36,602 nt of DNA, from IMG/VR virus record IMGVR_UViG_3300027969_002404, positions 1 through 36,602 of that record; one strand, given 5' to 3'. The translations under genes were made by a program, and so were the position numbers. Positions within the stretch are counted from its first letter, which is position 1. Each line of letters starts with the position of its first letter. Positions 11,107-26,239 of the stretch are shown here, one piece after another. The stretch comes from a virus. The notes beneath the pieces are model-generated. The model was not told the DNA's origin, did not search any database, and was given only the letters and a program-made list of their open reading frames with translations.

Positions 11107-11177
11107 AATTAGTGTTTTGGTTTAGTAAATAGTTGACAATAGTGTAACTATTTGTTATACTAGCTGTAACACTAATT
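11107..11177 (+). promoter_or_regulatory. Sigma70 promoter of clpA-like gene with nested inverted repeats and a TAAATA box
   Basis: TTGACA at 11133-11138, 17-base spacer, TATACT at 11156-11161; predicted start near 11168. AAATAGTT (11127-11134) and AACTATTT (11146-11153) form an 8-bp inverted repeat over the -35 and spacer. AATTAGTGTT (11107-11116) and AACACTAATT (11168-11177) form a 10-bp inverted repeat flanking the whole promoter. A TAAATA box lies at 11126-11131. The arrangement resembles an operator-controlled early promoter with a possible late start. Confidence 0.8.
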
Positions 11178-11201
11178 TCTGTGCTATTTAAGGAGTACCG
11201 T

Positions 11202-13403
11202 ATGGAAGAAAATCAACACCACTCAATCAATGAGATATTGGAACAAGCATTTAAACTTGCTTTGCATCGTGAACACGAATATGTTACTTTAGAACATTTA
11301 ACCATTGTACTACTAGAAAAAGAAGAAGTCCGAGAATATTGTCATACAATGGAGGCAGATGCAGATGCTATCATTGATGATCTAACAGAATTCCTAAATG
11401 GACAAGACTACCTAGTAGTCACAGGTTTAACTCGTCCACGCAAAACACAGACATTAGAACGTGCATTTAATCGTGCGTTTACTCAGGCTATCTTTAATGG
11501 TCGTGCAGGCATTGCTCCTCAGGACATGTTATTAAGTATTCTCAGCGAACGTAATAGTCATGCTTGTTACTATTTGGCACAGCATAATGTTACCAAAGAA
11601 GCATTTTTAGAAGTACTTGGTAAAAATAACAAATCGGAAACAAAAATTAAAAATAGTGCTGAAAAAATTCTAAATGAATTCTGTATCAATCTAAATGAAG
11701 AAGCTAAGAATTTAAAAATTGATCCTTTAATTGGACGTAATAAAGAAGTAGAAAAACTTACACAAATTCTTGCTCGACGAAAGAAACGTAATGCTATTCT
11801 AGTTGGCGAACCAGGTGTAGGTAAGACTGCTATTGTAGAAGGTCTTGCTCGTAAGATTTTTGAAAAGTCTGTGCCACATACACTCAAAGACTGTATAATT
11901 TATAGCTTGGATATGGGTGCTATGATGGCAGGTACAAAATATCGCGGCGACTTTGAAGAACGTGTTAAACAAGTTATTGATGTGTTAGAAGCGCGAACAG
12001 ATGCTATTCTATTCATCGACGAAATTCACACAATGGTGGGCGCCGGTGCCGCGGGTAATAGTAATACTGACATGGCTAATTTGTTAAAGCCTGCACTAAC
12101 TCGTGGTAAAGTACAGATCATTGGAAGTACAACCTACGAAGAATATCGCGAATCAATTGAACCCGAACGTGCTCTTGCTCGTCGTTTTACCAAACTAGAT
12201 GTAGTAGAAATGAGCCCCGAAGATTGTAAAAACATGCTTCATTGTATTATGCCAGAATATGAAAAGTATCACGGAATTGATGTAGAAAGCGACGCCATCG
12301 ATGCGGTAGTAGACTTAACTGTTAAACACATGCATGACAAGTTTTTACCAGACAAAGCCATTGATATTTTAGATAGTGCCATGGCCAAAGCCAAAGTCGA
12401 TAGTCGTGAAACTTTAGTAACATTGTTCCATGTCAAAGAAGAAATTAGTATTCAAGCCAAAGTCCCTATGGAACAACTCAACACTCAAATTGAGCCATTG
12501 AATTTAGACTATGAATCACAAATTAAAAAATCTGTGTTTGGTCAAGATTCTGCAATTGAAAAACTACTTGACAATGTTTACATTGCTAAGGCAGGTTTAA
12601 AAGATCTTACTAAACCCATGGGCAGTTATTTGTTTGTCGGACCAACTGGTGTTGGTAAAACAGAACTTGCACAACAACTTGCTAACAGCCTAGGTATGAA
12701 ATTGCTACGCTATGACATGGGCGAGTATATGGAAAGTCACAAGGTTGCTAGTTTGATTGGTGCTCCTCCTGGCTACGTCGGCTATGGTGAAGGCGGCACT
12801 GGCGCTGGTAAACTTATTAATGATCTGGAACAAACCCCCAGTGCTGTATTGTTGCTAGACGAAGTCGAAAAAGCTCACCCAGACGTCCTTAATATCTTGT
12901 TAGGTGTAATGGATAATGGTATGCTGACAAGCAGTAATGGCAAAACTGTTAGCTGTCGTAATCTAATTCTTATTATGACCAGTAACTTAGGTGCCCGTGA
13001 TGGTGAACGTAGTAAGATTGGTTTTAACAATAGTTTAAATAGCACAGCCAGTTTGGAAGCAGTTAACAAACACTTTACTCCAGAGTTTAGAAATCGTTTA
13101 GACGCAGTTATTGAATTCAATAGACTTGCGCCTGAACAAATCACACCTATTGCTATTAAGTTTGTTAATGAACTTAACGATTTGCTGGCAGCTAAAAATA
13201 TTACCCTTACGTTAAATAGTTCAGCGTTAGACAGATTAGTAGCTGAAGGTTTTGATGAAAAGATGGGTGCCCGTCCGATGAAACGTTTAATTGCTGACAA
13301 GATTAAAAAGCCATTGAGTAAACGAATTGTCTTTGAAAATTTAAGTAACTGTGCGTTAACAGTATCACATAACGGCACTGATTATGAACTTATTAATACC
13401 TAA
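11202..13403 (+). CDS. clpA: ClpA-type AAA+ unfoldase with ClpP-docking IGF loop
   Basis: 733 residues from the ATG at 11202, which has AAGGAG at 11190-11195; an upstream in-frame GTG at 11181 would put this site inside the gene. Domain order is that of ClpA (758 in E. coli): Clp N-domain with two repeats (1-140), D1 with Walker A GEPGVGKT (202-209) and Walker B ILFIDE (269-274), then D2 with GPTGVGKT (480-487) and LLLDEVEK (550-557). No ClpB middle coiled coil is present. IGF at 606-608 matches the ClpP-binding IGL/IGF loop, so it should dock host ClpP and direct proteolysis. No ClpP gene is in the window. It has its own decorated promoter. Confidence 0.93.
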   Translation: MEENQHHSINEILEQAFKLALHREHEYVTLEHLTIVLLEKEEVREYCHTMEADADAIIDDLTEFLNGQDYLVVTGLTRPRKTQTLERAFNRAFTQAIFNGRAGIAPQDMLLSILSERNSHACYYLAQHNVTKEAFLEVLGKNNKSETKIKNSAEKILNEFCINLNEEAKNLKIDPLIGRNKEVEKLTQILARRKKRNAILVGEPGVGKTAIVEGLARKIFEKSVPHTLKDCIIYSLDMGAMMAGTKYRGDFEERVKQVIDVLEARTDAILFIDEIHTMVGAGAAGNSNTDMANLLKPALTRGKVQIIGSTTYEEYRESIEPERALARRFTKLDVVEMSPEDCKNMLHCIMPEYEKYHGIDVESDAIDAVVDLTVKHMHDKFLPDKAIDILDSAMAKAKVDSRETLVTLFHVKEEISIQAKVPMEQLNTQIEPLNLDYESQIKKSVFGQDSAIEKLLDNVYIAKAGLKDLTKPMGSYLFVGPTGVGKTELAQQLANSLGMKLLRYDMGEYMESHKVASLIGAPPGYVGYGEGGTGAGKLINDLEQTPSAVLLLDEVEKAHPDVLNILLGVMDNGMLTSSNGKTVSCRNLILIMTSNLGARDGERSKIGFNNSLNSTASLEAVNKHFTPEFRNRLDAVIEFNRLAPEQITPIAIKFVNELNDLLAAKNITLTLNSSALDRLVAEGFDEKMGARPMKRLIADKIKKPLSKRIVFENLSNCALTVSHNGTDYELINT

Positions 13404-14074: not shown

Positions 14075-14107
14075 AAAAGGTGTAATTTCGGTTACACCTT
14101 TTCTTTT
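14075..14107 (+). terminator. Rho-independent terminator after the clpA unit
   Basis: AAAAGGTGTAA (14075-14085) pairs perfectly with TTACACCTTTT (14092-14102) around a 6-base loop containing TTCG, followed by CTTTT. The A-tract on the left makes it bidirectional in form. It separates the clpA operon from the late fibre operon. Confidence 0.88.
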
Positions 14108-14110
14108 GGC

Positions 14111-14116
14111 TAAATA
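14111..14116 (+). promoter_or_regulatory. Late-type box starting the tail-fibre operon
   Basis: GGCTAAATACA immediately follows the terminator. The predicted start, near 14122, leaves a short leader with CGGAG at 14124-14128, seven bases before the ATG at 14135. Confidence 0.65.
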
Positions 14117-24865: not shown

Positions 24866-24957
24866 ATGTTGCGTCGCAACATAAATAATGTTATAATAAA
24901 CACATAGCGTCTAAGGATAGAGCTATTTTATTACTTGCTTACATTAAGGAGAAAATT
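24866..24957 (+). promoter_or_regulatory. Phasin-gene control region: 17-bp palindromic operator, extended -10, late box, strong RBS
   Basis: ATGTTGCG-T-CGCAACAT (24866-24882) is a perfect palindrome with 8-bp arms. The candidate -35 TTGCGT (24869-24874) lies inside it; 17 bases on is the extended -10 TGTTATAAT (TATAAT 24892-24897). TAAATA at 24882-24887 sits in the spacer. TAAGGAG at 24945-24951 is six bases before the ATG at 24958. This looks like a repressible strong early promoter with a possible second late start. Confidence 0.82.
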
Positions 24958-25233
24958 ATGTTTACAGTAGATTCAACAGTAGATACCATTCAAAATGGTA
25001 AAAAACAATTCGTTAAGACTTTCGTACAAAACGAAACAGCGGCAACAGCAATGAATGAGTTCATTGATGCACAGGCCGAATACACTAAGAAAGCCGCTAA
25101 AGTTGGTATGGATACATTCACAACATTGGCCACAGAGTCAACTAAAGCCATGCAAAATGCTATGAAATTTGACTACACTAAGTTCGGTGAAGGCATTATG
25201 AAGGCTTACACAGCTACTACATCTAAGAAATAA
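24958..25233 (+). CDS. Phasin-like small helical protein (91 aa)
   Basis: 91 residues, almost all helical, with no cysteine. The pattern AQAEYTKKAAKVGMDTFTTL and TKAMQNAMKFDYTKFGEGIM resembles phasins (amphipathic helices that coat polyhydroxyalkanoate granules), although at 91 residues it is shorter than most. Phasin_2-type proteins also act as regulators or chaperones. The gene is monocistronic, with a near-ideal promoter, operator palindrome, strong Shine-Dalgarno and terminator, so it is probably very highly expressed. If truly a phasin, it implies a PHA-storing host. The alternative is a phage-specific helical protein with only compositional resemblance. Confidence 0.55.
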   Translation: MFTVDSTVDTIQNGKKQFVKTFVQNETAATAMNEFIDAQAEYTKKAAKVGMDTFTTLATESTKAMQNAMKFDYTKFGEGIMKAYTATTSKK

Positions 25234-25254
25234 TTAAATTTTACTTCTAGATCA

Positions 25255-25290
25255 ATCCTTGCTAAATAACATATTAGCAAGGATTTTTTT
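25255..25290 (+). terminator. Terminator of the phasin gene with nested late box and Shine-Dalgarno
   Basis: ATCCTTGCTAA (25255-25265) pairs perfectly with TTAGCAAGGAT (25274-25284), followed by seven Ts (25284-25290) that end exactly at the next ATG (25291). TAAATA (25263-25268) spans the end of the left arm and the loop. AAGGA (25279-25283), the ribosome binding site of the next gene, is in the right arm. Confidence 0.9.
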
Positions 25291-25836
25291 ATGAGATTTA
25301 ACGAATTCAATGAAGGCATAGACCCTAGTGCAAAAGCCGCAATCAAAGGTATGCGTGAACTAAGCGGTGATCAATACTATGGTTTATACAAAACTATGAA
25401 AGATGTTGCTGGCCATGATGGCGAAAAGCAAACAGCTCCTGAAGGTGTAACAGATCACGAAGTCAGCGACAAGCCATTTGCTTATGCTTATACTGATGAA
25501 GAAAAGAATATGATCAAAGGTGTAGATCCCAAAGCTAAACAGATTACCAGCGATAAGAGTGAAGAACTAGATGAAGGTGTAGCAGAAGCAGGCAATAATT
25601 ATCATGCTAACCGTACAGGTTTTGCTAAACCACAAGGACATAGAGATGATGAGCGTCATGATTTAGATGTAGCCCGTCCGCTAATCTACGGATTAAAAAT
25701 CAACGGCAAGATTTGGCAGAAAGACGGCAACACAGTTACATTCTTTACTAAAGAACGTGCCTTGGCTGCTAGAAATGCTATACTTGCAAAACGTCCGGAC
25801 GTAGAAGTTGGACTAGCACAAAGACCACAGGATTGA
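25291..25836 (+). CDS. Phage protein with MRFNEFNEG start (181 aa)
   Basis: 181 residues, polar and charged. It starts MRFNEFNEGIDPSAKAAIKG, has a disordered middle (KQITSDKSEELDEGVAEAGN) and a C-terminal folded part (RPLIYGLKINGKIWQKDGNT, ERALAARNAILAKRP). No catalytic motif is recognised. The N-terminus resembles the short capsid-targeting sequences of T4 internal proteins, which are cut by the prohead protease at [LI/F]xE sites. This is an inference from the first ten residues only. A late start inside the preceding terminator would drive it. Confidence 0.75.
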   Translation: MRFNEFNEGIDPSAKAAIKGMRELSGDQYYGLYKTMKDVAGHDGEKQTAPEGVTDHEVSDKPFAYAYTDEEKNMIKGVDPKAKQITSDKSEELDEGVAEAGNNYHANRTGFAKPQGHRDDERHDLDVARPLIYGLKINGKIWQKDGNTVTFFTKERALAARNAILAKRPDVEVGLAQRPQD

Positions 25837-25840
25837 TATT

Positions 25841-26239
25841 ATGCGTTTAGATGAATTCACAGACAACGATGTTCCAGAAGTTGGAGACATACTAGAAGTA
25901 GAGATAGGCGACGAAGTTGTTGAAACTGTGATCGCTGCCATAGACAACGGTGACTATATCTGCGAAACAGACAATGATGTAAGTATGTCTTTGTTAGAAG
26001 CAGAGTATCACGGACGTAAAGTTAAATTAGGCAAACCCATGCCAGGCGATGTTAAAAAATCAAAGGTGTATGTTAGAAATCCTAAAACAGGTAAAGTAAT
26101 TAAAGTAAACTTTGGCGATCCTAATATGCGTATTAAGAAAAGTAACCCTGCACGTAGACGTAGTTTTAGAGCAAGACATAACTGCGCTAATCCTGGACCA
26201 AGAACTAAAGCACGTTACTGGAGTTGTAGTAAGTGGTGA
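25841..26239 (+). CDS. Phage protein with conserved basic Cys-containing C-terminus (132 aa)
   Basis: 132 residues. The N-terminal half is acidic (MRLDEFTDNDVPEVGDILEV). The C-terminal half is strongly basic and reads VYVRNPKTGKVIKVNFGDPN, then RIKKSNPARRRSFRARHNCA, then PGPRTKARYWSCSKW. I have seen this ending in many large environmental phages as a protein of unknown function (I believe DUF5872-like; unverified). The basic end with two cysteines and conserved aromatics looks nucleic-acid-binding. It shares the MR[FL]xEF opening with the preceding gene and is separated from it by four bases. Confidence 0.78.
   Translation: MRLDEFTDNDVPEVGDILEVEIGDEVVETVIAAIDNGDYICETDNDVSMSLLEAEYHGRKVKLGKPMPGDVKKSKVYVRNPKTGKVIKVNFGDPNMRIKKSNPARRRSFRARHNCANPGPRTKARYWSCSKW

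Follow-up and report, generated by a model that had tools for sequence, protein, structure and literature searches.

A predicted insulated restart element combining a terminator hairpin, a late promoter box and a ribosome-binding site in a T4-like environmental phage

A terminator-like hairpin holds a putative late promoter box and a Shine-Dalgarno sequence

Can one intergenic hairpin end a transcript, start another and hide the ribosome-binding site of the gene that follows? The question is raised by IMG/VR record IMGVR_UViG_3300027969_002404, a fragment of a T4-like environmental phage whose 36,602 nt (36.6 kb) were analysed as a whole (the window), and for which an initial annotation had proposed that a single element stops early transcripts, starts late ones and blocks early translation. 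A repeat search of the window revealed a 12-bp, 100% complementary inverted repeat with an 8-nt loop (25254–25265 / 25274–25285) in the gap from the end of a 91-aa phasin-like ORF to the ATG at 25291, and a terminator scan of the window independently listed the same hairpin as terminator-like. The element consists of the following parts:

25254–25265, plus strand: 5' arm AATCCTTGCTAA (inverted repeat, folding, alignment)
25262–25268, plus strand: putative late promoter box CTAAATA, unchanged across 11 relatives, with CTAA in the stem and ATA in the loop
25266–25273, plus strand: 8-nt loop ATAACATA (inverted repeat, folding)
25274, plus strand: predicted late transcription start (±2 nt, from box spacing), first base of the 3' arm
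25274–25285, plus strand: 3' arm TTAGCAAGGATT (inverted repeat, folding, alignment)
25279–25283, plus strand: Shine-Dalgarno (SD) sequence AAGGA inside the 3' arm, 7 nt from ATG 25291
25284–25290, plus strand: T7 tract, predicted terminator U-tract and SD-to-ATG spacer, its first two T paired

Folding of 25250–25292 gave a minimum free energy of -15.4 kcal/mol (z = -6.1), which none of 200 shuffled sequences equalled, and this stable 12-bp hairpin, with G-C at 4 of its 12 pairs, is followed immediately 3' by the U-tract (T5, 25286–25290, when only unpaired bases are counted), the arrangement of an intrinsic terminator. The extended pairing between the hairpin flanks and the ATG region seen in the fold was A/U-rich and coding-constrained. 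The TAAATA that had been assigned to the loop is present at 25263–25268, preceded by C, but only its ATA is looped out, as CTAA (25262–25265) belongs to the 5' arm and pairs with TTAG; the AAGGA described in the 3' arm, seven bases before the ATG, was found exactly there. An Rfam search returned nothing above threshold. A bidirectional terminator was considered and rejected, the 5' side having no A-tract and no opposite-strand gene being evident nearby.

TAAATA behaves as a late promoter box in these phages

Thirteen related contigs were retrieved in pieces. Among 980 occurrences of TAAATA, 213 (22%) were located in intergenic DNA at most 60 nt upstream of a start codon, compared with 1.5–6.5% for 13 of 14 permuted hexamers in the same position test and 11% for the fourteenth, ATAAAT, which overlaps the box. 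The 235-kb contig G002 carries a homologue of the T4 late sigma factor gp55 (phmmer 1e-7; PHROG late sigma 1.8e-62), and a gp55-type factor is present in the other large record with a nested element (that of locus L150); homologues were also detected in G026 and in three sigma70-class relatives. None was found in the 36.6-kb window or in G004, G009, G011 and G018, which are possibly fragments. This enrichment before genes relative to permuted hexamers, together with the encoded gp55-like factor, suggests that TAAATA behaves as the late box of these phages. According to PMC1524935, the late promoter of phage Aeh1 is CTAAATA, starting at -12; since this placement, applied here, puts the start at 25274, the position predicted in the initial annotation was reproduced.

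Two other places in the window show related arrangements. At 11125–11161, GTAAATA directly precedes TTGACA-17-TATACT upstream of an ORF for a ClpA/B-like protein with two AAA domains (11181–13403), which looks like late and sigma70 promoters in tandem. At 14075–14116, a 12-bp terminator (AAAAGGTGTAA...TTACACCTTTT) is followed by CTAAATA (14110), a tandem version after which a short ORF has its own SD.

Stem, box and Shine-Dalgarno sequence are conserved together

Relatives were located via the upstream gene, in 80 viral contigs at first and in further ones later. The nested element was present at the same place in 11 distinct phages (the window, L001, identical to L002, L003, L005, L022, L032, L045, L054, L063, L155 and L150, the last adjoining a remote phasin-like gene). 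In the alignment of the 11 elements CTAAATA was invariant, 98.5% of the stem cells were paired, and 15 cells showed compensatory change, in 4 pairs altered on both sides. Stem covariation was 0.364 versus 0.176 ± 0.028 in shuffled alignments (0 of 500 shuffles as high), and slid registers all scored far lower. The initial annotation had asked whether the stem covaries in relatives with box and ribosome-binding site kept, and across these 11 phages box and purine-rich 3'-arm SD were indeed retained together. Because the distance from box to arm is nearly constant, the predicted start falls at or beside the junction of loop and 3' arm in all 11. At least six T lie beside the stem in 10 of the 11; in L155/L156 stem, box and SD are kept and the T-run is broken (GGATTTTCCACC), and termination is therefore not always kept. 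As all 11 elements occupy one syntenic site, they represent one element lineage and not 11 independent origins.

TAAATA was found inside 10 of the 98 intergenic terminators of 14 contigs, always in the one after the phasin-like gene and in no other intergenic terminator of these contigs. A stricter scan of 16 contigs found the box once on the sense strand of each carrying contig and on the reverse strand in a single instance overall, and two pattern scans of 2.9 million viral contigs recovered essentially only this site and one unrelated false-positive family, in which the flanks are unpaired. The pattern matches L142, L146 and L149 were discarded since the bases flanking their boxes form no stem. 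Taken as sequence evidence, these data argue that the element is more than chance.

The 3' arm holds a putative ribosome-binding site that is predicted to be free only in RNA started at the box

Each of the 10 nested terminators in the 14 contigs had a 3' arm with an anti-SD energy of -5.2 to -6.1 kcal/mol and an ATG 4–8 nt past the stem; the median energy of the other 88 terminators was -0.4. A start codon within 12 nt was found for just 4 of 84 of the others, and the sole case with a strong SD among these is itself a nested sigma70 promoter. The SD was located in the 3' arm of all 11 late-nested elements, although it is a modest GGGG in several relatives. Judged by box position, the predicted late RNA would lack the 5' arm in all 11. 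Modelling of the two RNAs gave an unpaired probability for the SD of 0.00 in read-through RNA and of 0.27–0.66 in box-started RNA, again in 11 of 11, which is in line with the earlier proposal that the site is hidden in the former and free in the latter.

The upstream gene also carries a late-type box

The gene ahead of the hairpin and its promoter region comprise these features:

24866–24882, plus strand: palindrome ATGTTGCGTCGCAACAT in the upstream gene's promoter, holding the -35-like TTGCGT (24869–24874)
24882–24887, plus strand: late-type box TAAATA of the upstream gene, present there in 10 of 11 relatives of the nested class
24892–24897, plus strand: sigma70 -10-like TATAAT, 17 nt after TTGCGT
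24958–25233, plus strand: phasin-like ORF of 91 aa, its family weakly supported

The name phasin, used in the initial annotation, draws on weak hits to Phasin_2 in 3 of 11 members (best E 0.007), and neither NCBIfam nor PHROGs yielded a phasin match for this gene. The promoter region (24866–24897) appears composite, with the palindrome TGTTGCGTCGCAACA, TAAATA and TTGCGT-17-TATAAT; a similar palindrome was seen in most relatives' upstream-gene promoters, and it is kept where the -10 decays. We take it to resemble the operators of host PHB regulators (PhaR-type).

The upstream gene thus has both sigma70-like and late boxes, and it is probably transcribed late too. Given that TAAATA at this promoter, late RNA carrying the left arm probably exists, and such RNA would also be stopped or mute. 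Of the proposal of an early-stop, late-start element, the structural logic stands, carried by 11 phages, covariation and folding, but the clean division into early and late has less support. Because of this second late box, 'insulated restart' describes the element better than 'early off, late on', and the split into early and late is the least secure part of the reading.

An insulated restart is the favoured reading

We consider it probable that this is a module for insulated restart, in which a terminator is combined with a nested late start and with occlusion of the SD in read-through RNA; start, termination and translation are inferred here from the observed sequence, conservation and covariation and from the modelled pairing. 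A polymerase that comes in from the phasin-like gene, or from further upstream, would transcribe the whole hairpin and be released at the U-tract. Polymerase with a gp55-type late sigma factor would bind CTAAATA in the same DNA and start near 25274; as this RNA would have no 5' arm, no hairpin could form and AAGGA would be exposed seven bases before the AUG of the presumed late gene. In a transcript that escaped termination the SD would be fully paired and translation poor. The 3' arm would thus serve both as one half of the terminator and as ribosome-binding site, the U-tract would be both terminator tail and spacer between SD and AUG, and the downstream unit would be expressed from box-initiated RNA only, whether the incoming RNA is early or late.

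That the hairpin is an ordinary terminator, whose A/T-rich loop contains TAAATA, and whose purine-rich arm contains AAGGA, by coincidence or ancestry, is very improbable: the window is 63% A+T and contains TAAATA 50 times on its two strands, but CTAAATA is invariant while the stem letters change by compensation, other intergenic terminators of the 14 contigs lack the box, and the box is enriched before genes. More weight, though still little, can be given to a purely translational off-switch of the type of T4 gene e and I-TevI, the T-run being an AU-rich spacer that terminates nothing. The leaders of T4 e, soc and I-TevI, read directly in the T4 sequence, have the box in the hairpin and the SD in the 3' arm with no terminator T-run, the L155 hairpin is kept despite its broken T-run, and the stem is A-T rich; against this stand the T-runs of the other 10 elements and the ordinary terminators that relatives carry at exactly this spot.

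Mere compaction is a stronger contender, which we nevertheless regard as rather unlikely. Terminator and late promoter would overlap for economy of space; the SD would lie in the stem just because the ATG is close, and its hiding would have no regulatory importance. Relatives (L004, L050, L067) have a terminator and late promoter in tandem at the same site and an SD that is not part of the hairpin, the SD of most sigma70-nested versions lies downstream (L012, L021), and efficient termination would leave little read-through RNA to silence. However, the SD is in the arm in every late-nested element and far stronger than at other terminators, and T4 employs the same occlusion as real regulation.

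Relation to T4 and Aeh1 elements

In T4, the SD of e, soc, 49 and I-TevI is hidden in a hairpin made only by RNA initiated upstream, and the late promoters of these genes are placed such that the 5' arm is missing from late RNA; in gene e the structure cuts synthesis about 100-fold (PMC3014915, PMC2988022). SD-sequestering hairpins with a nested or adjacent late promoter are known for T4 e, soc, 49, I-TevI/II/III and segB and for Aeh1 mobE (PMC3014915, PMC2988022). By analogy and by the modelled folds, the window element would work like these hairpins, with upstream RNA that would hide the SD and a late box in or beside the 5' arm or loop that would start the translated RNA. It differs in that its stem is followed by U7 and lies after the stop codon of another gene, and in that CTAAATA replaces T4's TATAAATA. 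The tandem terminator and late promoter sites of T4 (87187, 100551) likewise end one unit and start a late one across a short gap, but there the box follows the hairpin, whereas in the window it is inside and the 3' arm is the SD. With Aeh1 late promoters the window shares the box and the C at -12, and the available part of PMC1524935 does not describe the Aeh1 boxes as lying in terminators.

The translational logic is thus known from T4 e, soc and I-TevI, and what is new is the added T-tract of an intrinsic terminator; the element counts as a new version because it combines the T4 SD hairpin with a terminator-plus-late-box. No earlier case of a promoter lying inside the loop of a terminator was found in the open literature, which does not prove its absence. 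If the reading is true, termination, initiation and translational occlusion are packed into about 40 bases of a wild phage and the paradigm of T4 lysozyme and I-TevI is extended; it would offer a simple rule by which a newly gained gene is fitted into a late operon with no leak either way, and a compact insulator design that is directly testable.

Predicted restart promoters of two types follow the phasin-like gene

Among 77 distinct loci, 69 had a terminator after the phasin-like gene, most with a restart promoter, which was of the late type and nested at 11 loci or in tandem at 5, or of the sigma70 type and in tandem at 25 or nested at 15 or more. The sigma70-nested class is undercounted, since some loci classed as 'terminator only' (L018, L044, L046, L057, L059, L069–L071) have a nested sigma70 promoter whose hexamers are weak. 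Tentatively, and with somewhat less than even confidence, we suggest that large T4-like environmental phages use such 'restart terminators' as a general device whose promoter is late or sigma70, the type having been exchanged in evolution. If true, a restart terminator with the 3' arm as SD and the U-tract as spacer would allow insertion of a cassette with its neighbour kept insulated both transcriptionally and translationally.

Terminator hairpins next to the phasin-like gene or at a distance from it were also seen to hold nested sigma70 promoters (G008:56899, G006:172127, G002:201953 and the minus strand of G011; pieces L245–L279, L092–L103 and L115–L121). Those at G008:56899 and G006:172127 have the same triple design, which combines TTGACN, a TATAAT inside the hairpin, a 3' arm with AGGA, a T spacer and ATG. 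The nested sigma70 terminators that follow the phasin-like gene in L018, L033, L038 and L153 have an ATG within their loop or 3' arm; that of L018 reads MNRIFLLC... into a lipoprotein-like signal peptide, which suggests a near-leaderless start with coding through stem and T-run.

The element stays and the cargo changes

Two ORFs of the downstream unit follow the hairpin:

25291–25836, plus strand: ORF of 181 aa (MRFNEFNE...), no family match
25841–26239, plus strand: next ORF of the unit, 132 aa, PHROG match to phrog_7595 (unknown function)

The product of the first is presumed to be a late virion-internal protein. No relatives of this ORF were confirmed among viral contigs, and the sole match from a DNA search of isolated phages was a weak one of 232 bp to two Pelagibacter phages. 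The downstream ORFs of the 11 elements are not all homologous, and 10 of them start with MR[FL]; by sequence comparison, the element appears to stay in place as its cargo changes.

An N-terminus of the form M[RK][FLI]xE[LF] was observed on unrelated bodies in many late-region ORFs (window 25291, 25841 and 34687; G002 87494–108810). It is similar to the leaders of T4 internal proteins (ipII, MKTYQEFIAEA; Alt, MELITELFDE), and by this analogy these N-termini may be leaders that target interchangeable cargo to the capsid. In the same ORF cluster of G001, G002, G004, G009 and G011, a few proteins share the pentapeptide GVAE[AGS], which occurs up to 7 times per contig as against 0–1 for permuted versions and resembles hydrophobic-x-E prohead protease sites.
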